From Myxococcales bacterium (GTDB lineage: Bacteria; Myxococcota; Myxococcia; Myxococcales; Myxococcaceae), in NCBI GenBank assembly GCA_030681895.1, contig JAUXRI010000012.1, positions 1 to 64,000 on the forward strand: a stretch of DNA of 64,000 bases, read 5' to 3'. Under the pieces are notes generated by a model. That model did not search any database, was not told the DNA's origin, and was given only the letters and a program-made list of their open reading frames with translations. Positions within the stretch are counted from its first letter, which is position 1. Every line of letters begins with the position of its first letter. This document shows positions 30,077 through 47,848 of this stretch, piece after piece. The position numbers and the translations under genes are program-made.

Positions 30077-31636
30077 GTGCTGAACACACCCACGTTCACG
30101 ATGTCGGAGATGATGACGGTGGTGCCAGCGGCCGTGCTGGTCATCGGCGCCATCGTCTTGATGCTCTCCGAGGTGTTCCTCTCGGCCGCGAACCGCACGT
30201 ACATGGCGGTCATCGGCGTCATCACCTCGGCCATCGCCGGCCTGTTCGCGCTGCAGAACGCGTTCGAGCCTGCGCGCCTGGTGCTGCAGGGCTTCGCGGT
30301 GCTCGACCCGTTCTCGAGCTTCATGACGGTGATGGTGTGCCTCGGCACCGGCTTGGCGTGTCTGCTGGCGTCGGGTTTCCTCAAGCACCGCAACGCCGAG
30401 CGCGGAGAGTTCTACGCACTGATGCTCTTCGCAGCGGCCGGCATGAGCCTGCTCGCGGCGTCGAACGAGTTCATCACGCTCTTCATCAACCTCGAGGTGC
30501 TGTCGATTGCGACGTACGCGCTGACGGCGTTCCTGCGACGCGGCCCGCGGCCTGCCGAAGCCGGCTTCAAGTACTTCATCCTCGGCGCGTTCGCGGCGGC
30601 GCTGCTGCTGTACGGCGCGTCGTTGCTCTATGGCGCCACCGGCAGCACGCGGTTGTCGGACCTCGCGACGCTGCTCCCCGGTGCGATGGCGACGAAGTCT
30701 GGCCTCGTCTACGCAGGCTTCGGGCTCGTGCTCGCGGGCTTCGCGTTCAAGGTGGCGGCGGTGCCGTTCCACATGTGGACGCCGGACGTCTACGAAGGCG
30801 CTCCCACGCCCGTCACCGCGCTGATGAGCGTTGGTGTGAAGGCCGCGGCGTTCGTCGCGATGGTGCGCACGTTCCTCGCGCTGGTGCACGGCCTCGACCC
30901 GCAGGTGCCGTTCATGTTGTTCAGCATTCTGGCGCTGCTGACGATGGTGGCGGGCAACCTGCTCGCGATGCCCCAGCGCAACGTCAAGCGCATGCTGGCG
31001 TACTCGTCGATCGCCCACGCCGGTTACCTGTTGCTCGGCGTCACGGCGCTCTTCGTTCCTGCGGCCGCGAAGGCCTCGGACCCGGGTGGCGTGCTCTCGG
31101 CGACGCCGCTGCTCGCGAACGCGGCGGTCAACGCGAGCGTCTACAAGGGCATTCTCTTCTACCTGCTCGGCTACACCGTGACGTCCATCGGCGCTTTCGG
31201 CACCCTGGCCGCCATCGAGCGCCGTGAAGACGAGACGCGCGGCAACACGTGGGACCTGGAGCGCTTCGCCGGCCTCGCGCAGCGTCAGCCCGGCTGGGCG
31301 GCGGCGATGGCGGCGTTCATGTTGTCGCTCGCGGGCGTGCCTCCGACGGTGGGCTTCCTCGGGAAGCTGTTCATCTTCAGCGCGGCGGTCGACGCGGGCC
31401 TCATCTGGCTGGCCGTCGTCGGCGTGCTCTCGAGCGTCGCGGGCACGTATTATTACCTGCGCGTCGTCGTTTACATGTTCATGCGGCCGGCTCCGGCAGA
31501 TGCACCCGCGCCGTTCCGTCACTGGACGACCGAGGTCGCGCTGGTGGTGTCGGCGGTGGCGACGGTGGCGCTGGGCATCGTTCCTGGCCCGATTTCGGAG
31601 TGGCTGTCGCGCGCAGGCATGGTGTTCGGGAACTAG
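30077..31636 (+). CDS. nuoN: NADH-quinone oxidoreductase subunit N
   Basis: The third antiporter-like subunit, 519 residues. Motifs: FINLEVLSIATYALTAF with the helix-5 Glu, FKVAAVPFHMWTPDVYEGAP and TALMSVGVKAAAF for the broken helix, and KRMLAYSSIAHAGYLLLG. The GTG start lies 15 bases after nuoM. It is the last gene of the block; 166 bases follow before the next gene and I see no clear intrinsic terminator there. Confidence 0.96.
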   Translation: MLNTPTFTMSEMMTVVPAAVLVIGAIVLMLSEVFLSAANRTYMAVIGVITSAIAGLFALQNAFEPARLVLQGFAVLDPFSSFMTVMVCLGTGLACLLASGFLKHRNAERGEFYALMLFAAAGMSLLAASNEFITLFINLEVLSIATYALTAFLRRGPRPAEAGFKYFILGAFAAALLLYGASLLYGATGSTRLSDLATLLPGAMATKSGLVYAGFGLVLAGFAFKVAAVPFHMWTPDVYEGAPTPVTALMSVGVKAAAFVAMVRTFLALVHGLDPQVPFMLFSILALLTMVAGNLLAMPQRNVKRMLAYSSIAHAGYLLLGVTALFVPAAAKASDPGGVLSATPLLANAAVNASVYKGILFYLLGYTVTSIGAFGTLAAIERREDETRGNTWDLERFAGLAQRQPGWAAAMAAFMLSLAGVPPTVGFLGKLFIFSAAVDAGLIWLAVVGVLSSVAGTYYYLRVVVYMFMRPAPADAPAPFRHWTTEVALVVSAVATVALGIVPGPISEWLSRAGMVFGN

Positions 31637-31702
31637 TCGGGCGGCCACGGATTTCGGGTCGACGGTTAGCTCGGTCCACGTTCATCAACTCGGCACGGAA
31701 CT

Positions 31703-31718
31703 CGTCACGGCCGTGACG
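31703..31718. promoter_or_regulatory. Perfect 16-bp palindrome downstream of nuoN
   Basis: CGTCACGGCCGTGACG is identical to its own reverse complement. It lies 67 bases after the nuoN stop and 85 before the ATG of the FlgE-like lipoprotein leader. There is no T-run, so it does not look like an intrinsic terminator; an operator for the downstream gene is more likely. Its half-sites CGTCAC/GTGACG match the inverted repeat at 20186-20203. Confidence 0.4.
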
Positions 31719-31792
31719 TCAGCCGCGTGACACACGTCGTGCAGGCCCTCGACTTCACGGGGCGGCGCACGACTTGCTCTTCCCATCGGCAC

Positions 31793-31800
31793 GGGAGGGG
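31793..31800 (+). promoter_or_regulatory. Strong Shine-Dalgarno of the FlgE-like gene leader
   Basis: GGGAGGGG ends two bases before the ATG at 31803, and the GGAGG core is four bases away. It is one of the best ribosome-binding sites in the window and marks 31803 as a real translation start, although the frame opened there stops after 31 codons. Confidence 0.65.
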
Positions 31801-31802
31801 TG

Positions 31803-31898
31803 ATGCACAAGGAACTGCTGCTCGTGGCGTTGGTCTGCGGCTGTGGCGTGGAGCGCCCGGCGACGGACTCGTCGGCTGCTGCCATGCGCACAGAATGA
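31803..31898 (+). other. Lipoprotein leader in a frame different from the gene body
   Basis: The ATG at 31803 opens 31 codons: MHKELLLVALVCGCGVERP followed by a short spacer and a TGA at 31896-31898. The first 14 residues form a lipoprotein signal with Cys at 14, and a Ser/Ala/Asp spacer follows. The FlgE-like body continues in the frame reached by skipping one base. The two open frames overlap between 31843 and 31895, so one extra base (or two missing) anywhere there would break an originally continuous lipoprotein. It could be a sequencing error, a true mutation or programmed frameshifting. Confidence 0.6.
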
Positions 31899-32859
31899 AG
31901 GCCACTGGGCCCAGTGCGATCCGCTCAGCCGCGGCGCCGTCGTCGAGACCGGCGTCGAAACGGACCTCGCCATCGACGGCTACGGCTACTTCCTCGTCAT
32001 GAATAGGGGCCAGTTGTTGCTGACCCGCGACGGCGCCTTCACCATCGACTTCGACTCGCACCTCGTCAGCCGTGACGGCTACTCGCTGCAGGGGTTCGGG
32101 CCGGGAAGCATCGTGGCGAGCGACCTCACCATCACGCCGACGACGCTACTGGCCACACCGACCTCGCAGGTCTCGATGCTCGCGAAACTCGATCCGAACG
32201 CGGCGATTCTCACCTTCGATCCGCTGAATCCGACGACGACCAGCAACTTCACGGCCTCGGTCACCGCGTACGACTCACTCGGGGCCAGCTTCGACGTCAC
32301 CGTCTATTTCAATCGGACGGCGAGCGGCTCGTGGGACTTCCACGCCATGGTGCCCGACGGCGCGGCCTTGACGGGCGGCACGGCAGGGCAACCGGCGGAG
32401 TTCGCGAGCGGCGCGATGACCTTCGATACCCAGGGGCGTCTCTTCACCATCACTCAAACCTCGAACTTCAACCCGCTGAACAGCGTGAACCCCCAGCCGC
32501 TGTCCTTCAACTTCGGTGACGACCTCATGAGCGGTGGAACGGGGCTCGCTGGCGTCGTGCAGAACATCGGCGGCAACGGGAATGAGCTGACTTTCACCAG
32601 CCAGGACGGTTCTGGCGCCGGTACCCTGAAGGGCGTCTCCATCGACTGGCGGGGGAGCGTGCTCGGCGAGTACTCCAACGGGCATCACGTCGAGGTGGCC
32701 CGACTGGCGCTCGTGCGTGTCTCGTCACCGAACCTTCTTCGCCACGTCGGCGGGAAGCTCTTCGCGCCGAAGGACAGTCCGAGACTTCTGGTCGGGCTGC
32801 CGGGCGACGGGCTCTTCGGCACGATTCGTTCGGGAGTGCTGGAGCGGGTGTGTGAGTGA
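31843..32859 (+). CDS. FlgE-like flagellar hook-type protein without D0 helices
   Basis: The body is homologous to FlgE/FlgF/FlgG proteins. VETDLAIDGYGYFLV, then LTRDGAFTIDFDSHLVSRDG and LQGFGPGS, match the conserved N-terminal core. SVTAYDSLGASFDVTVYF and GSWDFHAMVPDGA match the FlaE domain. VLGEYSNGHHVEVARLALV, then VGGKLFAPKDSP and GDGLFGTIRSGVLE, match the C-terminal core. Both coiled-coil D0 ends that polymerise into hooks are absent: it stops right after SGVLERVCE. The nominal GTG start at 31843 gives an Arg-rich leader that looks artificial; real translation probably starts at 31803 in the other frame. No other flagellar gene is in the window, so a non-flagellar surface role seems likely. 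Confidence 0.75.
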   Translation: MAWSARRRTRRLLPCAQNEGHWAQCDPLSRGAVVETGVETDLAIDGYGYFLVMNRGQLLLTRDGAFTIDFDSHLVSRDGYSLQGFGPGSIVASDLTITPTTLLATPTSQVSMLAKLDPNAAILTFDPLNPTTTSNFTASVTAYDSLGASFDVTVYFNRTASGSWDFHAMVPDGAALTGGTAGQPAEFASGAMTFDTQGRLFTITQTSNFNPLNSVNPQPLSFNFGDDLMSGGTGLAGVVQNIGGNGNELTFTSQDGSGAGTLKGVSIDWRGSVLGEYSNGHHVEVARLALVRVSSPNLLRHVGGKLFAPKDSPRLLVGLPGDGLFGTIRSGVLERVCE

Positions 32860-33149
32860 AAGGCTGCCGAATCGGGGCACGACAGGTCTCTTCGGAACAG
32901 CACACACTCGAGCGCCCCCCCGGCAGAAGCCGGAGCCGTGAAGCGCCGACTGCGGCTCGATTGTTACCTCCACCCGTGAGCTCGCCAACGAGCTGCATCG
33001 CTGGGAGCACGAGCTCCAGCAGCTGTTGACGGTTGCCGTCGATGCGGCTCCAGAGACCTGCGCCGTCCTTCAGGCGTGTGCTGGTCGCGTACCGTCCATC
33101 GAAGTGCCACAGCTTCGGGTTCCCTCGGTGCGCTACGCTTCCGTTCTCG

Positions 33150-34214
33150 ATGCGTGCGCTCCTCGTGCTTCTCGTGTTCACGCTCTCGTGCGGAGCGACC
33201 TCGGTGCGTGTCGGCGGCGCGGGTGGCGGCTCGACGACGGGAAGTGACGCAGGCGCTGTTGGCTCGGGTGGAGGCGGCGCTGCAGGCGGAAGCGCCACGG
33301 GTGGCGGAACCGGTGGAGGCGAGTTCGACGCCGGCCTCTCGTGCCCTCCGCTGCCGCAGCCTCCCGACGACGCCGGCGTGGTGATGCACCCCGACTTCGC
33401 CGCCAACTACACCTTCTCGGAGCTCGGCCCGGTGCCCGGAGTGCCCGGCCCGCTCGGTGGCTGCGTGGTGCTGCAGAACGATCGCGACCACCTGCTCATC
33501 GCCGGCGCTTCGGAGCGCCCGAACGGCGGCCTCTACCGCGTGCGCGTTCGCCGCAACGCGTGTGGCCACATCATCGGGTGGGACGGCACCGCCACGAAGA
33601 TCGCCGACACGCCTTACATCGACGCGAACATCCTCGAGCTGCCCGGCAGCTCGCTCCTCTACACCGGGTGGAACGTCTCGCAGCTGAGCCAGCTGAGGCT
33701 CGACGCGGGCGCTCCGCTGTGGACGACCGACCTCACCACGCGCGGCCAGATGGGCTCGAGCGCGGGCGGCCTCGGGCGCGTTCCTCCGTGGCTCGCCGCC
33801 GCGGGGCAGTTCCGCATCGTCGGCTGGCCCGACGGCAAATGGCACCGGCTCACGTTGACCGCCGACGCGGGCGTCTACGCCGTCGGCGGGGTTGCCGACT
33901 CCCAGGTGCCAGCGCTCTCGGGAGGGCCCGGTGGTTTTGCCTACGTGCCGCTGGGCTCCGCTCAGTTCATGCGCGCCTCCATCATCCTCTCGGAGTGGAC
34001 TGCCAACGAGGTGTCGATCATCGAGGTCGACGCGCAAGGCAACCCGCAGCAAGGCACGCGACGCCGGCTCTTCACGCGTTTCCCCCGCCCATGGGGCGCC
34101 TACTTCGAGCCCGAGACCGGCGACTTCCTCTTCATGACGTGGGGCCGCCCGGGTCTGCCCGACAGCGTCTTCATCGTGCAGGGCTTCGAGAAGCCGCCGC
34201 CGGTCATCGAGTGA
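33150..34214 (+). CDS. Lipoprotein with beta-propeller-like domain (354 aa)
   Basis: The ATG at 33150 starts a lipoprotein signal (MRALLVLLVFTLSC). Residues 20-60 are a Gly/Ser linker (GGAGGGSTTGSDAG). The remainder has repeated strand-rich blocks (HLLIAGASERPNGGLYRVRV, ANILELPGSSLLYTGW, KWHRLTLTADAGVYAVG, GDFLFMTWGRPGLPDSVF) that read like propeller blades. Pairs of Cys (LSCPPLP, GGCVVL, NACGH) may be disulfides. No family recognised. A 290-base gap separates it from the FlgE-like gene. It ends 4 bases before the next gene, which is probably co-transcribed. Confidence 0.72.
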   Translation: MRALLVLLVFTLSCGATSVRVGGAGGGSTTGSDAGAVGSGGGGAAGGSATGGGTGGGEFDAGLSCPPLPQPPDDAGVVMHPDFAANYTFSELGPVPGVPGPLGGCVVLQNDRDHLLIAGASERPNGGLYRVRVRRNACGHIIGWDGTATKIADTPYIDANILELPGSSLLYTGWNVSQLSQLRLDAGAPLWTTDLTTRGQMGSSAGGLGRVPPWLAAAGQFRIVGWPDGKWHRLTLTADAGVYAVGGVADSQVPALSGGPGGFAYVPLGSAQFMRASIILSEWTANEVSIIEVDAQGNPQQGTRRRLFTRFPRPWGAYFEPETGDFLFMTWGRPGLPDSVFIVQGFEKPPPVIE

Positions 34215-39677: not shown

Positions 39678-41144
39678 GTGGTGATCCACCAGACCCGTGT
39701 TCTCTTCACGTCGCTCGTCGTGTGCGCGTCGAGCGCGTTCGCTCAGTTCGAGCTCGACCTCTCGGGCTCCTCTGAGAAGAAGCCTGAGGCGACGAAACCC
39801 GCCGACGCGAAGAAGCCCGCGAAGGCCGAGAAGGCACCGCCTGCCGCCGCCGCGAAGCCCGCCGCCGAGGTGGAGCTCGACCTCTCGTCCACCGCCGACG
39901 TGAAGGCGGTGCTGTTGCTCCCGCCCATCGTGCGCGTCACGCAGAGCCAGGGCGGGTTCAGCGGGTTCGACACCAAGAAGACGTTCGAGAAGTTCGACTA
40001 CGCCGCTCACAAGCGCTTCGTCGCGAGCCTGCAGAAGCCGCTCGGCGGCAAGGTGATTTCGCCCGAGGCCACCCAGACGCTCATCGTCAAAGAGGGCATC
40101 ACCATCGCCATGGTACGCACGAGCGCCGGGCTCTCGAAGCTCGCGAAGGCCGCGAACGCCGGCTTCATCGTGCAGCTCGAGTTCAGCAAGACCGCCGCGC
40201 TCGTCGCCACGGTGCACGACGCAGAGGGCACGCAGAAAGGCGAGCCGTACTCCGTGTCCAACGCCGGGAGCCTCACCCAGAAGAACGCCGACGAGCTCGC
40301 CGAGAGTCTCGGCAAGGGCCTCCTCGAGCTCTCGAAAGAGAAGCCCGCTGGAGCGGTGGCGGTCGTCGAAGCGCCGCTCCCTCCGCCCGAAGAAGACGTC
40401 GTCGACTCGCCGCCTGAGATCGTGAAGGAAGCTCCGAAGACGTGGACGCCAGACCCCGACAAGACGCGCGTCGTCGTCGCCGTCGGTGCGGGTGGTGTGC
40501 TTCGCGGGCTGACGGTCGGTGGTGAATCCGCCAGCCAGCTCGCCGAGCTGCGCAACAACGGCGTCGCGGGCGTCGGCGTGTACGCGCAGGTCCAGCCGTT
40601 GCAGTTCATTCCGGCCTTCGCAGGCAAGCGCTGGGCTGACTTCGAAATTGAAGTGAACTTCCGCCGCGCCTTCGTGCGGGCCACGGGCGTCGAGGGCTCG
40701 GCGCAAGGGACGAGCTGCTCGATGACCGACGACGATCTGCAGCTGCGCGGCACGTACCGCTTCAAGGTTGCAGACTCGACCTACGCGCCGTCGGTCGGCG
40801 TCGGCGGCGGCTGGAGCCAGGAGCGCACGCTGTTCGACGCCTGCACGTTGCCGCTCGTCTCGGCGACCTACCGCGGCATCGACGCGCAGCTCCGAGTCCG
40901 TCAGCCACTCTTCCGCAACCTGCTCGCCCTCGACCTCGCCGCCGGCCCCCGCTTCCTCCAGGGCGGCGCGGGCACGTCGACGAAGCTCTCACTCTCGGGT
41001 GAGGCGTGGCTCGAGCTCAAGCCAGTGTCCGTGCTCTTCGTCCGCGGTGGCGCGCGAGGCTCACGCCTCTCAGCCGAGCTGCCCGGCATCTCCATCACCG
41101 AAAACCGATTCTTCTTTGCGCTCGAGGCGGGGGCCTTCTTCTAA
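39678..41144 (+). CDS. Exported protein with C-terminal beta-barrel-like domain (488 aa)
   Basis: The start is a GTG at 39678, with a second GTG next to it. A signal peptide ends at SSAFA (about residue 23). An Ala/Lys/Pro linker (30-68) follows. Residues 70-215 are an alpha/beta periplasmic-like domain (VKAVLLLPPIVRVTQSQ, KLAKAANAGFIVQLEFSKTA). After another Pro-rich linker, residues about 255-488 alternate strands (RVVVAVGAGGVLRGLTV, VSVLFVRGGARGSRLSAEL) and end FFFALEAGAFF, as outer-membrane barrels do. The next gene starts 2 bases later, so it is translationally linked to the MopE-like giant protein and may export or anchor it; that is an inference. Confidence 0.75.
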   Translation: MVIHQTRVLFTSLVVCASSAFAQFELDLSGSSEKKPEATKPADAKKPAKAEKAPPAAAAKPAAEVELDLSSTADVKAVLLLPPIVRVTQSQGGFSGFDTKKTFEKFDYAAHKRFVASLQKPLGGKVISPEATQTLIVKEGITIAMVRTSAGLSKLAKAANAGFIVQLEFSKTAALVATVHDAEGTQKGEPYSVSNAGSLTQKNADELAESLGKGLLELSKEKPAGAVAVVEAPLPPPEEDVVDSPPEIVKEAPKTWTPDPDKTRVVVAVGAGGVLRGLTVGGESASQLAELRNNGVAGVGVYAQVQPLQFIPAFAGKRWADFEIEVNFRRAFVRATGVEGSAQGTSCSMTDDDLQLRGTYRFKVADSTYAPSVGVGGGWSQERTLFDACTLPLVSATYRGIDAQLRVRQPLFRNLLALDLAAGPRFLQGGAGTSTKLSLSGEAWLELKPVSVLFVRGGARGSRLSAELPGISITENRFFFALEAGAFF

Positions 41145-41146
41145 TC

Positions 41147-44100
41147 ATGCGACTCCTTCGACTGACCTGCTTCCTCTCCGCGCTCGTCCTGTTCACCGCT
41201 GCGCCCGCCCTCGCTCAGACGTGCTCCGCGCAGATCGGCGGCGTGCAGTGCAACGGCAACGACAACGAGAACGACTGTGACGGCGACGGCTGCCGCCGAG
41301 GCTTCGGCGACTGCAACGACTGCGACTCCACCATTCGTGGGCCTGCGTGCCCGGGTGGCGGGCCTCGCATGCCGCCGATCCCTGGAGGCGCAGGGCCGGA
41401 GATCTGCGACGGCAAGGACAACAACTGCAACGCGGGCGTCATCGACGAAGGCCCGACGGGAACGCCAGGCACCGTCGACGGCGGCATCGCCTGCACCATC
41501 GGAAGCAACCAGGGCGTCTGCCGGCCGGGCACCACCGCGTGTCTGGGCGTGATGGGCGTCGTCTGCCAACAGAACGTGATGTCGTCGATGGAGGTCTGCG
41601 ACGGTCGCGACAACGACTGCGACGGCGACACCGACGAGACCGGCGGCTCGGGCAGCCCGAAGCTGACGCAGAACTGTTACCCGACGCCCGTCGCCACCTT
41701 CGGCACGCCGAACGTCGGCGTCTGCCGCAACGGCCAGCAGGCGTGCAACTCGGCCGCGAACTCCGGAGTCGCGAGCTACACCGCGTGTGGAGTCTGCGGC
41801 GCCCTGGCCACCTGCATGACGCCCGTCACCGCAGCGAACCCGCCTGGCGGCAACGAGGCGACCTGCAACGGCGCTGACGACGACTGTGACGGCACCAACG
41901 ACGACGGCGTGCCCGGCGTCGGCGCGGCGTGCACCGTGGGGGGCCAGCAGGGGCGCTGCGCGCAGGGCACGCAGCAGTGCAGCGGCGGCGGAGGGCTCAC
42001 CTGCACGCAGGTGAACATGCCGCAGATGGAGACGTGCAACGGCATCGACGACGACTGCGATGGCTTCATCGACGAGGTGGGCGCGACCGACTTCCCGAAG
42101 CTGAAGCGCTCGTGTTTCCCCGGCCCCGGGACGGCAGGGCAGGGCATCTGTACGAATGGTGAGCAGGCGTGCAACGCGGCGGTCGGCAGCGGCGTGTCGT
42201 CGTTCACTGCGTGTGGCTCGTGCGGCGCGCTGGCGACGTGCTCCAGCCCCGTCACCGCAGTCGCCGAGGTCTGCGACACCCTCGACAATGACTGCGACAA
42301 CGTCGTCAACAACGGCAACCCCGGTGGTGGCGCGGCGTGCACCAACATGGCGGCCTTCGGCGTCTGCCGCGCAGGAACGCAGACGTGTCAGGCGAACGGG
42401 ACGATCGCGTGCAACTCGACCATCGCGCCCGGCTCGCAGACCGAGGTCTGTGACGGCCTCGACAACGACTGCGACAACGCGGTCGACGAGACGGCAGGCG
42501 TCGGCAGCCCGACCTTGAGCCGGGTCTGCTACGCCGGCCCGAACGGCACCTTCACGGGCACCTGCGGCGCCAACCCCAACGCGTGTAGCCCTCGCGGGGA
42601 GTGCCGCGGCGTGACGCAGGTGTGCCCAGGCGTTGGTGGCTTCCCCGCCTGTGGCGCCGCCACGTCGGGCGCCGACGGTGGCACCCAGCGCTTCAACGTG
42701 GCCGAGATCTGCAACGGCCGAGACGACGACTGCAACGGCGCCAATGACAACGGCGCGGCGGGCACTGGCGGCATGTGCAGCAACGACGCCGGCGTCGGCG
42801 CGTGCACCGGCGGCACCGTGCAGTGTGTGGCTGGCGCGCTGGTCTGTCAGGGCGCCGGCGGGACCGCGGAGATCTGTGACGGCATCGACAACGACTGCGA
42901 CGGCGACGTCGACGAGTCTGGCGCTCCCGGCAGCTTGAGGTTGTCGAGGCTCTGCTACGGCGGCCCCGCGGGCACCTTCACCGGCTCGTGCCAGACGATG
43001 CCTCCCGCGACCAACTGCGCGCCTCGCGGCATCTGCCGTGGCGTGCCCATCTTCTGTCAGGGCGCGGCGTTCCCCGCGTGCTCGATGGCGACGATGGCTC
43101 CCGACGGCGGCGTCCAGGTCTTCCCCGGCATCGAGGTCTGCAACACGCTCGACGACGACTGCGACGGCACGCTGAACGACGGCCTCTCGGGCATGGCGTG
43201 CGACACGGGCCTGCAGGGCGTCTGCCGGCCGGGGACGGAGCAGTGCACTCCGGCCGGCAATATCCTCTGTGTTCGCAACCGCGACGCTGGCCCCGAGCTC
43301 TGCAACACCCAGGACGACGACTGCAACGGCATTCCCGACGACAACGTCGCGCCGCGCATCTGCTTCGACGGCCCGGCTGGAACGTTCAACGGCCAGTGCG
43401 GCCTGTCCGACGGTGGCACCCAGGGCTCGGGCGCGCAGTGTCTGACGCGTGGCCTCTGCCGTTCGTCCACCCAGCAGTGCAATGGCGCGGGCAACTGGCT
43501 CGCGTGCGGTCTCGGCCTGCCCGGCAACCAGCAGCAGCTGCTGCCCACGGCTGAGATCTGCAACGGCCTCGACGAAGACTGCAACGGCTCGGCTGACAAC
43601 GGGCTCATCGTCGATGCCGACAACGACATGGTGCGCGCGTGCGGCACCTGCGGCGCCAACCCCGACGGCGGCTGTGACTGCGCCGACAACAACCCCAACG
43701 TGCGCCCCGGCCGCATCGAGCTCTGCAACGGGCTCGACGACAACTGCAACAGCGGCGTCGACGAGGCCTCGACGGGCGTCGGGAAGATCTCTCAGAACTG
43801 CTACTCCGGCCCCGCCAACACGGCAGGCCGCGGCGTCTGCGTGCAGGGCAGCCAGGAGTGCAACGCCACGCCTGACGGCGGCATGGCCACCTTCGGCGCC
43901 TGCATGGGCGAGCGCGTGCCCTCGATGGAGACGTGCAACATGTTGGACGACGACTGCGACGGCACCGTCGACGACGGCTTCGACGTCGACAACGACACCT
44001 TCCGCGTCTGCATGGCGTGCGGCTTGTCGATGAACTGCGACTGCGACGACACGAACCCCAACATCCGCCCGGGCGCGACGGAGCTCTGCGACAACGTCGA

Positions 44101-47100
44101 CCAGAACTGCAACGGCCGGCTCGACGACGTCACGCCGCGCGGCTGCTTCGCCGACCCGGCGGGCATGATTCCTCCGCCCACCACGTACACCGGCACCTGC
44201 CCTGGCCCGACCTGCGTGCCCAAGGGCGTCTGCCGCACCGGCACCCAGAGCTGCACCATGGCTGGCGACTGGGGCTCGTGCATGAACGTGACGCTGCCCC
44301 GCGCCGAGCAGTGTGACGGCACCGACGACGACTGTGATGGCACCGTCGACAACGGCACCTTCGACGTCGACATGGACCGGTACGTGTCGTGCGCGCTCTG
44401 CGGCAACCGCGTCGCGCCCGACGGCGGCATCGGCTGTGACTGCAACGACGCCAACGCGGCCATCAACCCTGCGGCGCCTGAGATCTGCGACGGCATCGAC
44501 AACAACTGCGACATGGTCGTCGATGGCACCGACACGGCCTGCTACTCGGGCCCGCCGCTCACCCGTTCGCAGGGCCTCTGCGTCGACGGTCTGCAGACGT
44601 GCACCAACGGAATGGGCAGCGGCGTCTGCCGCATGGAGCGCCTGCCCACTGCGCTCCCCGACGGCGGCTCTCCGGCCTTCCAGCCCGACGCCGGCGTCAA
44701 CGACCCTGAGTTCCGCTGCGATGGCATCGACGAAGACTGCGACGGCGTCGTCGATGACGGCTTCGACCAGGACGGCGATGGCGTGACGACCTGCCAGAAC
44801 GACTGCGACGACACCGACTCGTTCAACAAGCCGGGCGGCAAGGAGATCTGCGACTGCAAGGACAACAACTGCAACGCGACGGTGGACGACGCCGACGCGT
44901 GCCGCGGTGCCCCGTGCTTCGACTTCGACGGCGACGGGTTCACCAACTGTCAGGGCGACTGCAACGACGACCCGAACGGTGGCGGCCGTACGGTCGGCCC
45001 GACGAAGAGCGAGCGCGTGGGTGACGGCCTCGACAACGACTGCGACGGGCAGGTCGACGAGAACACCGACGAAGACGGCGACGGCTTCACCACCGGCGGA
45101 GCGATGGCGACGCGCGACTGCAACGACAAGCTCGGCGACGTCAACCCGGGCGCGGTCGAGCGCTGCGACGGCTTCGACAACAACTGCGACGGCGTCGTCG
45201 ACGAAGGCTTCGACCAGGACATGGACTTCGTGGCGGTCTGCGCTGGTGACTGCAACGACATGAACCCGGCCATCAACCCGACGCGCGCCGAGGTGTGCGG
45301 CAACGCCGCCGACGACAATTGTGACGGCCGCATCGACGAAGACACCGACAACGACGCCGACGGTGTCAGCACCTGCGCGGGTGACTGCAACGACTTCAAC
45401 GCCTCGGTGCACGGCGCCGCAGGGCCCATCTCAGCCGCGATGGAGGTCTGCGACGGCCAGGACAACAACTGCAACCGGCTCTTCGACGAGGGCTTCGACG
45501 TCGACAACGACGGCACGCCCGGCTGCTTCGGCGACTGCGACGACACCAACGTGAACATCGGGCCGCGCTCCTTCGAGGTGCCAGCCAACATGATCGACGA
45601 CGACTGCGACGGGCAGACCGACGAGGGCCAGGCCGACCGCGACATGGATGGCTTCTCGCCGACGTGTGGCGACTGCAACGACTTCGACTCGCGCATCAAC
45701 CCGCGCGCGATGGAGGTCTGCAACCGCGTCGACGACAACTGTGACGCCTACGTCGACTCGGCGCCCGGCCGCTTCAACCTCTGCTCGGTGTGCTTCGATG
45801 CCGATGGCGACGGGCAGACCAACTGCGACGGCGACTGCAACGACGCCGACCGCGCCATCTTCCGCGGCGCGCCCGAGGTCTGCGACCTGAAGGACAACGA
45901 CTGCGACATGCAGGTCGACATCGACCCGAGCACCGGCCGGCGCGTCTGCACCGGCATGGAGGACGCTGGCGTCGACGGCGGCGCCGATGCGGGCTCCGAC
46001 GGCGACGGTGGCACCATCGCGCCTGACGGTGGTGGCATGACGGGCGAAGACGACGCGGGCATCGTGGGCCCGATGACGCCGGGCGTGGTGACGACTGGCT
46101 GCGGCTGCGGTGCGACCGACGGCAGCGCGGTGCTCCTCGCCATGGGCGTGTTGACGGTCTTCGCGCGTCGGCGCCGCCAGCTCCGTCGGGCGGCTGTCAC
46201 GCGTGGGGGCGCCTTCTTCACGCTCGCGCTCGTCGCGCTCCTCACCACGGGCTGTCCGTCGTCGCTCACCACGCCGATGTTCGGCAGCGACGGCGGCTCG
46301 ACGGGTGGCGGCGCAGGTGGAGGTTCCGGTGATGGTGGCGCCGACGCCGACGCCGGTTTCGACGCCGGCTTCGTCGAGCCCGAGAACTGGCCGTGCCCGG
46401 GGCTCGCGCCGCAGACCCAGGTGCCGCGCAGCGTGCCCGGCACCACCAACCTCTTCGCCCTCTCGTCGCGCTTCGCGGTCGTCGAGAACGCAGCGGCGAA
46501 TGCGCTCGTCTACGGTGACGACTCGGCCGACCTCGCTGGCTTCGTGTTGCAGCGAGACATTCCCAGCTCGGTCGACCCGCTCAACCCGAGCAGCCTCGAG
46601 GTCGTCGCCAACGCCGAGGTCGACGCGCTCATTCAGCTCAGCGGCTCACCGCTCGTGCGCGACCGCCTGGAGCGCTCGAGCCGCATCTTTGTCAACGCCG
46701 ACCGCCCGCTGCGCGTGTTGCGCACGTTGTCGACGTCACAGCTGCTCACCTTCGGCACGCCCACCACGGCGTTCGCGGTGCGCAACCGCCTCCTCGGGGT
46801 TCTCGCGGGCAAGGACCCCGGCATGCTCGGCACGGTGCCGATGGGCCCTGCGACCGCGACCCAGGACGTCGAGCAGATCGTCAACCTCTTCTTCCGGTTT
46901 GGCAGCGGCAAGCTCTTCATCGGCGTCGTCGTCTCTCCGTCGACGAAGCTGCGTGAGAACCTCGCGCCGCTGAACGACTTCTCGAACGGCTCGCACCTGG
47001 CCGACGAGAGCGCCGCGCTCGCGACGCGCTGTGAGAAGCGCACCACGCCCGCGCTCAAAACCGACTTCCTCTTCGTCATCGACAACACCATCTCGATGGT

Positions 47101-47848
47101 CGAGGAGCAGCAGGCGCTCCAGGAGGCCTCCGACGGCCTCTTCGCCGCGTTCCAGCGCGCGGGCCTCGACTTCCGCCTCGGCGTGGTGACGACGGACAGC
47201 GACATTCTTCGCGGCAACGGCTTCGTCACCACCCTCAACGACTTCAAGGCCGCGGCGCGCGTCGGCCTCGACGGCAACACCACCGAGCTCGGCATCGAGT
47301 TCGGCCTGAGGGCGCTGCGCCGGGCGCGCATGTCGATGGTGCCGAACCTGACGTTGCGCGACCCGATGACGACTGGCCTCGTCGTCATCTTCATGTCGGA
47401 CGAGGACAACAAGAGCATCCGTCCCGGTACGTTCGGCTCGTACATCTCCGACTACCGCCTCGAGGGCGCGGTGACGTTCTCCATCGTGGGGCCCAAGCCG
47501 ACGGGGTGCATTCGTGTCGGTCGCGGCGAGGCACAGCCGGGCGATCAGTACATCGACCTCGCCAACGGTACCGGGGGCAGCTCGGGCAGCATCTGCAACC
47601 CGAACCTCACCGAGGTCATCGAAGAGGTCGTCATCGGTGCGCTCGGGGCGTCGAGCCGGTCAGCGCTGGAGCGTCGCCCCATCTCGGGCTCGCTGGCCGC
47701 CCGCACCATGATGGAGCTGATGCGAAACCGCTCGAACGGCTTCGACTACGAGCCTGCCGCGAACTCGATTCTCTTCTTCGGCATGGCCGCGCCTTCGGTG
47801 GGCGGGCCGTACGACGCCGCGTACCAGTTCTTCAACTACATCGACTGA
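41147..47848 (+). CDS. MopE-like Cys/Asp-repeat protein fused to a VWA-type lipoprotein (2233 aa)
   Basis: Signal peptide 1-23 (TAAPALA). Residues 30-1600 carry about 25 copies of a metal-binding motif of the form EICDGxDNDCDGxxDE, as in MopE-type and many myxobacterial surface proteins; Asp-rich loops and Cys pairs suggest calcium-dependent, disulfide-rich folds. At 1651-1680 there is a MYXO-CTERM-like tail (TGCGCGATDGSAVLLAMGVL then FARRRRQLRR), normally the very end of a protein. The frame continues without stop into a second lipoprotein signal (FFTLALVALLTTGC, Cys 1703), a Gly/Ser/Asp linker, then a von Willebrand A-like domain (DFLFVIDNTISMVEE, Asp about 1979; LVVIFMSDEDN). The C-terminus is YQFFNYID. 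Probably two ancestral genes now in one frame. Confidence 0.85.
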   Translation: MRLLRLTCFLSALVLFTAAPALAQTCSAQIGGVQCNGNDNENDCDGDGCRRGFGDCNDCDSTIRGPACPGGGPRMPPIPGGAGPEICDGKDNNCNAGVIDEGPTGTPGTVDGGIACTIGSNQGVCRPGTTACLGVMGVVCQQNVMSSMEVCDGRDNDCDGDTDETGGSGSPKLTQNCYPTPVATFGTPNVGVCRNGQQACNSAANSGVASYTACGVCGALATCMTPVTAANPPGGNEATCNGADDDCDGTNDDGVPGVGAACTVGGQQGRCAQGTQQCSGGGGLTCTQVNMPQMETCNGIDDDCDGFIDEVGATDFPKLKRSCFPGPGTAGQGICTNGEQACNAAVGSGVSSFTACGSCGALATCSSPVTAVAEVCDTLDNDCDNVVNNGNPGGGAACTNMAAFGVCRAGTQTCQANGTIACNSTIAPGSQTEVCDGLDNDCDNAVDETAGVGSPTLSRVCYAGPNGTFTGTCGANPNACSPRGECRGVTQVCPGVGGFPACGAATSGADGGTQRFNVAEICNGRDDDCNGANDNGAAGTGGMCSNDAGVGACTGGTVQCVAGALVCQGAGGTAEICDGIDNDCDGDVDESGAPGSLRLSRLCYGGPAGTFTGSCQTMPPATNCAPRGICRGVPIFCQGAAFPACSMATMAPDGGVQVFPGIEVCNTLDDDCDGTLNDGLSGMACDTGLQGVCRPGTEQCTPAGNILCVRNRDAGPELCNTQDDDCNGIPDDNVAPRICFDGPAGTFNGQCGLSDGGTQGSGAQCLTRGLCRSSTQQCNGAGNWLACGLGLPGNQQQLLPTAEICNGLDEDCNGSADNGLIVDADNDMVRACGTCGANPDGGCDCADNNPNVRPGRIELCNGLDDNCNSGVDEASTGVGKISQNCYSGPANTAGRGVCVQGSQECNATPDGGMATFGACMGERVPSMETCNMLDDDCDGTVDDGFDVDNDTFRVCMACGLSMNCDCDDTNPNIRPGATELCDNVDQNCNGRLDDVTPRGCFADPAGMIPPPTTYTGTCPGPTCVPKGVCRTGTQSCTMAGDWGSCMNVTLPRAEQCDGTDDDCDGTVDNGTFDVDMDRYVSCALCGNRVAPDGGIGCDCNDANAAINPAAPEICDGIDNNCDMVVDGTDTACYSGPPLTRSQGLCVDGLQTCTNGMGSGVCRMERLPTALPDGGSPAFQPDAGVNDPEFRCDGIDEDCDGVVDDGFDQDGDGVTTCQNDCDDTDSFNKPGGKEICDCKDNNCNATVDDADACRGAPCFDFDGDGFTNCQGDCNDDPNGGGRTVGPTKSERVGDGLDNDCDGQVDENTDEDGDGFTTGGAMATRDCNDKLGDVNPGAVERCDGFDNNCDGVVDEGFDQDMDFVAVCAGDCNDMNPAINPTRAEVCGNAADDNCDGRIDEDTDNDADGVSTCAGDCNDFNASVHGAAGPISAAMEVCDGQDNNCNRLFDEGFDVDNDGTPGCFGDCDDTNVNIGPRSFEVPANMIDDDCDGQTDEGQADRDMDGFSPTCGDCNDFDSRINPRAMEVCNRVDDNCDAYVDSAPGRFNLCSVCFDADGDGQTNCDGDCNDADRAIFRGAPEVCDLKDNDCDMQVDIDPSTGRRVCTGMEDAGVDGGADAGSDGDGGTIAPDGGGMTGEDDAGIVGPMTPGVVTTGCGCGATDGSAVLLAMGVLTVFARRRRQLRRAAVTRGGAFFTLALVALLTTGCPSSLTTPMFGSDGGSTGGGAGGGSGDGGADADAGFDAGFVEPENWPCPGLAPQTQVPRSVPGTTNLFALSSRFAVVENAAANALVYGDDSADLAGFVLQRDIPSSVDPLNPSSLEVVANAEVDALIQLSGSPLVRDRLERSSRIFVNADRPLRVLRTLSTSQLLTFGTPTTAFAVRNRLLGVLAGKDPGMLGTVPMGPATATQDVEQIVNLFFRFGSGKLFIGVVVSPSTKLRENLAPLNDFSNGSHLADESAALATRCEKRTTPALKTDFLFVIDNTISMVEEQQALQEASDGLFAAFQRAGLDFRLGVVTTDSDILRGNGFVTTLNDFKAAARVGLDGNTTELGIEFGLRALRRARMSMVPNLTLRDPMTTGLVVIFMSDEDNKSIRPGTFGSYISDYRLEGAVTFSIVGPKPTGCIRVGRGEAQPGDQYIDLANGTGGSSGSICNPNLTEVIEEVVIGALGASSRSALERRPISGSLAARTMMELMRNRSNGFDYEPAANSILFFGMAAPSVGGPYDAAYQFFNYID
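41399..45930 (+). repeat. About 25 MopE-type Cys/Asp motif repeats
   Basis: Within the 2233-residue gene the motif C-D/N-x-x-D-D/N-D/N-C-D/N-G-x-x-D recurs at irregular spacing, roughly 40-110 codons apart. The first copy is ICDGKDNNCNAGVIDEG and the last VCDLKDNDCDMQVDID. Between copies are blocks with CRPGTTAC- or GPAGTFTGTC-type Cys pairs in the first half, and DxDGDGxxxCxxDCND calcium-loop patterns in the second half, so the array has two sub-types. Confidence 0.85.

Follow-up and report, generated by a model that had tools for sequence, protein, structure and literature searches.

We have found that positions 31803-32859 of the window (the whole 64,000-nucleotide stretch of Myxococcaceae DNA analysed here) consist of a lipoprotein-type leader followed, out of frame, by domains D1 and D2 of the flagellar hook protein FlgE without D0. 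The architecture of this gene, its intact relatives, the flagellar genes of its host and a marked contrast between D1 and D2 are established by sequence.

A FlgE body without D0 behind a lipoprotein-type leader

The leader ORF opens at ATG 31803, begins MHKELLLVALVCGCG in translation and ends at TGA 31896-31898, and the body ORF lies in the frame one base later (Table 1). A preliminary description of this DNA had reported a lipoprotein signal with a Shine-Dalgarno sequence and a leader one base off the body, and the sequence confirms this. The break falls between the lipobox and the leader stop. The element CGGCACGGGAGG is common to the upstream regions of the window gene and of its counterparts in two genomes of the same genus, G004 and G001.

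Table 1. Coordinates of the D0-less FlgE gene and its parts in the window
Feature	Position	Strand	Remarks and evidence
Sigma-54-like promoter, GG-N10-GC	31763..31778	+	24 bases 5' of leader ATG; sequence only
Shine-Dalgarno GGGAGGG	31793..31799	+	sequence
Lipoprotein-type leader ORF, out of frame with body	31803..31898	+	MHK start as in G004 leader
Presumed lipidated Cys codon in leader	31842-31844	+	sequence
Body ORF, mechanical GTG start; FlgE D1-D2 without D0	31843..32859	+	sequence, Pfam, PDB sequence and fold matches
Linker Cys codon, before D1	31915..31917	+	body residue 5, counting from 31903
D1 first half, fast-evolving	31924..32181	+	domain match, alignment/tree
D2, 84% identity to host FlgE D2	32182..32607	+	domain match, alignment/tree
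D1 second half, fast-evolving	32608..32844	+	alignment/tree
Tail Cys codon	32851..32853	+	body residue 317, counting from 31903

In Pfam scans the body matched FlgE_D2 (E 2e-16) and the FlgE/F/G D1 domain (E 1e-9), with no match to the D0 families Flg_bb_rod and Flg_bbr_C; the host's own FlgE, in the same scan, matched both D0 families as well. All 19 NCBIfam matches of the body were to FlgE/F/G models, of which the general subfamily model alone passed its cut-off. The likeness to FlgE is not due to chance, because the body shares about 60% identity with the full-length FlgE of the host over residues 28-335. A PDB sequence search gave FlgE, FlgF, FlgG or named flagellar proteins in 15 of 16 matches, the sixteenth (E 0.28) being unrelated. 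Structure prediction, suggested earlier, was carried out with AlphaFold: the model of the window body had a mean pLDDT of 85.6 and was confident except at both ends, and that of the protein from a relative, G015, had a mean of 86.7 and was likewise weak at both ends. Every fold match at E 0.001 or better (26/26) came from a flagellar entry, mostly FlgE. The earlier claim that the FlgE core is kept without either D0 end is thus borne out, and from its sequence the body, lacking D0, would be expected to fail to form a hook.

The gene does not adjoin flagellar genes, and Pfam scans of 32 of the 40 predicted ORFs of the window revealed no further one, in agreement with the preliminary description. 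The window also contains, at 41006-47848, a 2280-residue ORF with 13 Cu-binding_MopE motif stretches, which would encode a very long repetitive protein.

Relatives of the gene and the flagellar genes of the host

Complete intact copies are known from two genomes only, G015 (L025/L075) and G018 (L030/L072), which belong to a second genus of the same family. Each is a one-frame gene running from a lipobox Cys-Gly through a linker Cys and FlgE D1-D2 to a tail Cys, and in Pfam each protein matched FlgE_D2 and D1 and none of the D0 families. In the congener G004, the leader MHKGLSLTLVVVVGC is in frame as far as the contig runs, which is into the first body residues; another contig carries a C-terminal piece with LEQPCRP at its end, and we infer that the two belong to one gene. 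The copy in G001 is decayed, lies in three frames, lacks a start codon at the matching place and ends VELPCIE. By reading, then, the lipobox is in frame with the mature protein in G015, G018 and the G004 leader, and not in the window as assembled; the earlier question of whether homologues carry lipobox and FlgE core in one frame is answered affirmatively by G015 and G018, with the G004 leader in frame with the start of its body. When G004 is counted from its two contigs and G001 from its broken pieces, in all five copies the lipobox Cys is followed directly by Gly, and D1-D2 is flanked on either side by one Cys or more (two in the linker of G004). Among the full-length FlgE proteins counted, 16 of 22 had no Cys and six had one or two.

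Searches in nested sets of genomes (96 from the family, 145 from the order, 147 from the class and 195 from the phylum) recovered D0-less forms in five of the 195 (G000, G001, G004, G015 and G018 only); the G004 piece was recovered with the window query and missed by the G015 query. Sixty-one loci, of which L021 and L071 appear to be one place, were inspected for D0, an inspection that covered matches longer than FlgF/FlgG length (the sole match in G169, for example, is of that shorter kind). Two were the lipoproteins, 49 had a D0 tail by motif, six (L138, L140, L145, L148, L149 and L152) were missed by the motif and have a tail that reads as D0, and four (L027, L028, L155 and L157) are cut off on the 3' side. 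A pattern scan of 84,980 species genomes, which demands close peptide matches and which distant forms outside the phylum could escape, found 16 related loci, two of them the known lipoproteins and all titled Myxococcales, Myxococcaceae, Archangium or Myxococcus MAGs. A second match in G184 was rejected as a further member because its C-terminal end is that of flagellin. In that genome, an 839-residue open frame (L063:1198-3714, minus strand, contig C335) that the contig edge cuts at its 5' end contains FlgE D2 (E 7e-16), the helix of a flagellin C-terminus (E 3e-16) and, besides these, a Flagellin_IN motif, and is, by its predicted domains, a flagellin bearing a hook-type D2 domain.

The location of the gene differs among three genomes of the genus: after nuoN in the window (31636-33153), after an acyltransferase-like ORF in G004 and after a repeat-protein ORF in G001 (the latter two by eye; loci L104 and L059). 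About 110 upstream bases are common to the window and G004 (73%). In G002 and G004, nuoN is separated from the downstream gene by about 510 and 740 bases, respectively, with no lipoprotein gene between. A clean insertion at nuoN was considered and set aside, as the flanks in G002 and G004 fail to align and no junction can be named.

The preliminary description had called myxobacteria typically non-flagellate gliders and had suggested a domain reused for a surface structure. The non-flagellate premise is wrong for this host, whose genome codes for a FlgE of 431 residues that has both D0 families and adjoins FlgD and MotA, and further encodes FlgF, FlgG, FliL, FlhA and flagellin. Judged by these genes the host is flagellated, which corrects the non-flagellate view of this corner of the Myxococcaceae, and since the set includes a FlgE with both D0 ends, the hook domain was not reused to replace a lost flagellum. 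What stands of the earlier reading is that a D0-less protein of FlgE type sits behind a lipoprotein signal. FlhA-family genes were present in all 13 genomes tested of the two genera concerned and flagellin-type genes in 11 of the 13; several of the FlhA-family matches may represent other type III systems instead of a flagellum. Most of these genomes (G000-G006 and G014-G019) have two or three FlhA-family genes, so most of them probably carry type III secretion systems beside the flagellum.

Divergence of D1 and D2 and a candidate promoter

Identity between the window copy and host FlgE is far higher in D2 than in D1 (39%), and the end branches of the window copy in the tree are 0.11 for D2 and 3.66 for D1. 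Values of NG86 dN/dS for this pair were 0.14 (D2) and 0.64 (D1), compared with 0.17-0.22 (D2) and 0.02-0.44 (D1) in four FlgE pairs within the genus; in the second genus, measured against G018 FlgE, they were 0.32 and 0.69 for D2 and 0.73 and 1.17 for D1. All these ratios are rough, as dS is near saturation (1.10 in D1 and 0.90 in D2 between the window copy and host FlgE). The window D2 groups with the host genus in the tree (100/100). GC3 of the window copy is 86-87%, against 88-89% in host FlgE, which argues that the copy is not long dead. In a neutral simulation a stop-free body had P 0.05 at 0.3 substitutions per site and is hence not rare, so that an open frame by itself says little. Conversion of D2 by flgE was tested and is not supported (identical fourfold sites 19/45 in D1 versus 41/71 in D2; Fisher p 0.13). 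Placement of the three lipoproteins in one clade was rejected for D2 (AU p 2e-6) and not for D1 (p 0.41), which is saturated in this test. All three lack D1 loops and carry a GxPGD motif near the C-terminal end (by eye), two features that would favour a single origin.

A GG-N10-GC site stands shortly 5' of the start codon in the window (score 14.8), G015 (16.2), G018 (13.9) and G004 (13.1), the window and G004 sites not being independent because their upstream regions are homologous; the site upstream of the G001 remnant scores 10.5 and has GA instead of GG. Scores were calculated with home-made weights from the sigma-54 consensus, and the motif had been noticed by eye in three genes before scoring. 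The window site ranks top among 39 predicted gene starts in the window (next 12.4), where a score of at least 13 occurs in 0.6% of 60-base stretches. Around the gene in G001, G015 and G018, no score above 12.4 was obtained for any of 33 ORFs, a set that uses mechanical starts, with the lipoprotein ORFs starting upstream of their own sites. Such sites also precede the host flagellar genes flgF (15.6) and fliL (14.0); host flgE (9.7) and the gene for MotA (10.6), both internal to a cluster, lack them. Telling against the sigma-54 reading, high scores also occur inside genes and before some non-flagellar ORFs, for example 15.2 at 12 bases 5' of a 412-residue ORF in L062. A host-genome scan for TGGCNCNNNNNTTGCW adds nothing to the case for sigma-54, the reversed pattern being commoner (84 sites versus 26); the window site, which starts with C, is not among the 26. 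Taken from sequence, a sigma-54 promoter probably places the lipoprotein gene in the flagellar regulon.

Proposed role and its alternatives

The explanation that we tentatively prefer, with somewhat less than even confidence, is an outer-membrane lipoprotein that belongs to the flagellar regulon, displays a D2 domain of hook type, is probably disulfide-closed and perhaps touches the hook. A copy of flgE would have lost the coding for both D0 helices and gained a lipoprotein signal, and its product should neither form a hook core nor use the FlgE export signal. By the lipoprotein sorting rule, Gly at +2 directs a protein to the outer membrane; in the intact relatives the lipobox Cys would carry the lipid, and their Gly at +2 would send them there. 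The linker and tail Cys flank D1-D2 where the D0 helices would leave, and this presence of Cys at both cut ends suggests a probable disulfide, which would substitute for the D0 coiled coil and close the base; the pair lies in the ends of low confidence in both the window and G015 models. Lipidation, location, disulfide, sigma-54 control, hook contact and function are all things that we infer.

In the Salmonella hook (PMC6769732), D2 domains form continuous surface arrays along 6-start lines, D1 is arranged as a loose mesh, and the tube is held together by its D0-Dc core. The lipoprotein has dropped D0, relaxed D1 and kept a D2 like that of the local hook, which suggests that it retains the surface contact domain; D2 would be held close to the local hook with D1 free to diverge. 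An outer-membrane anchor combined with D2 suggests hook contact at the cell exit, or hook-like surface display, and the likeliest use would be to touch, close to the outer membrane, the array of D2 domains at the surface of the hook. In its most specific version, flagellated Myxococcus relatives would make a disulfide-closed, D0-less outer-membrane subunit whose D2 docks on the lattice of D2 domains of the cell's hook, linking hook and outer membrane, and in each genus this D2 would stay like that of the local FlgE through gene conversion or a twofold origin of the design; that full version we consider quite unlikely.

Several observations would also fit a truncated flgE duplicate, briefly expressed and being lost without a specific role: the frame break in the window, the state of the G001 copy, absence from most genomes searched, a near-neutral D1 and an open body that is not rare by simulation. 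The low dN/dS of D2 and the retained GC3 speak against such decay, as do the unbroken one-frame copies of the second genus, which share the leader, the Cys pair and the type of promoter, and we regard it as unlikely. The break and the decayed G001 copy do indicate that the gene is, on present sequences, dispensable in some lineages. Display without hook contact, in which the hook-like D2 would mediate adhesion or act as a decoy to phages or other hook-recognising agents, would suit a domain that is the outer one of the hook (PMC6769732) and the part kept like local FlgE, and lipoproteins can reach the surface; the sigma-54-like sites, which suggest timing with the flagellum, count against it, and it seems rather unlikely. 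As to the break itself, the preliminary description had offered an assembly error, a new pseudogene or programmed +1 frameshifting. A body in the +1 frame behind a leader that ends at TGA is what frameshifting would give, but no slippery +1 site was seen by eye at the break, and leader and body start share one frame in G015, G018 and G004, so that there is no conserved shift. Programmed frameshifting is thus highly improbable, and recent inactivation or mis-assembly of the window copy fits best.

The protein of our preferred explanation resembles hook protein FlgE (PF07559; PDB 1wlg, 6k9q) in having D1 and D2 by sequence and predicted fold, with a D2 derived from the genus's own FlgE, and differs from it in lacking D0 at either end, in its lipoprotein signal, its linker and tail Cys, its stand-alone gene and its fast D1. 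Helicobacter pylori FlgE2 (PDB 5npy), both a fold and a sequence match of the window body, is likewise a FlgE relative beside the main hook protein and, to our knowledge, is not a lipoprotein. FlgH of the L ring and FlgP are flagellum-associated outer-membrane lipoproteins, and thus similar in route and in proposed place of action; neither, as far as we know, is built from hook protein. Titles and opening parts of abstracts in the open-licence literature did not mention any FlgE with a lipid anchor. What normally defines the axial proteins of the flagellum is their D0 ends together with the flagellar export channel. A D0-less FlgE that has taken the lipoprotein route, with flagellar control apparently retained, would reuse an axial subunit in a new way. 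The intact copies in relatives point, by sequence, to a surface protein that has gone unrecognised and has a link to the flagellum, and make it a testable question whether an outer-membrane protein binds the hook surface.
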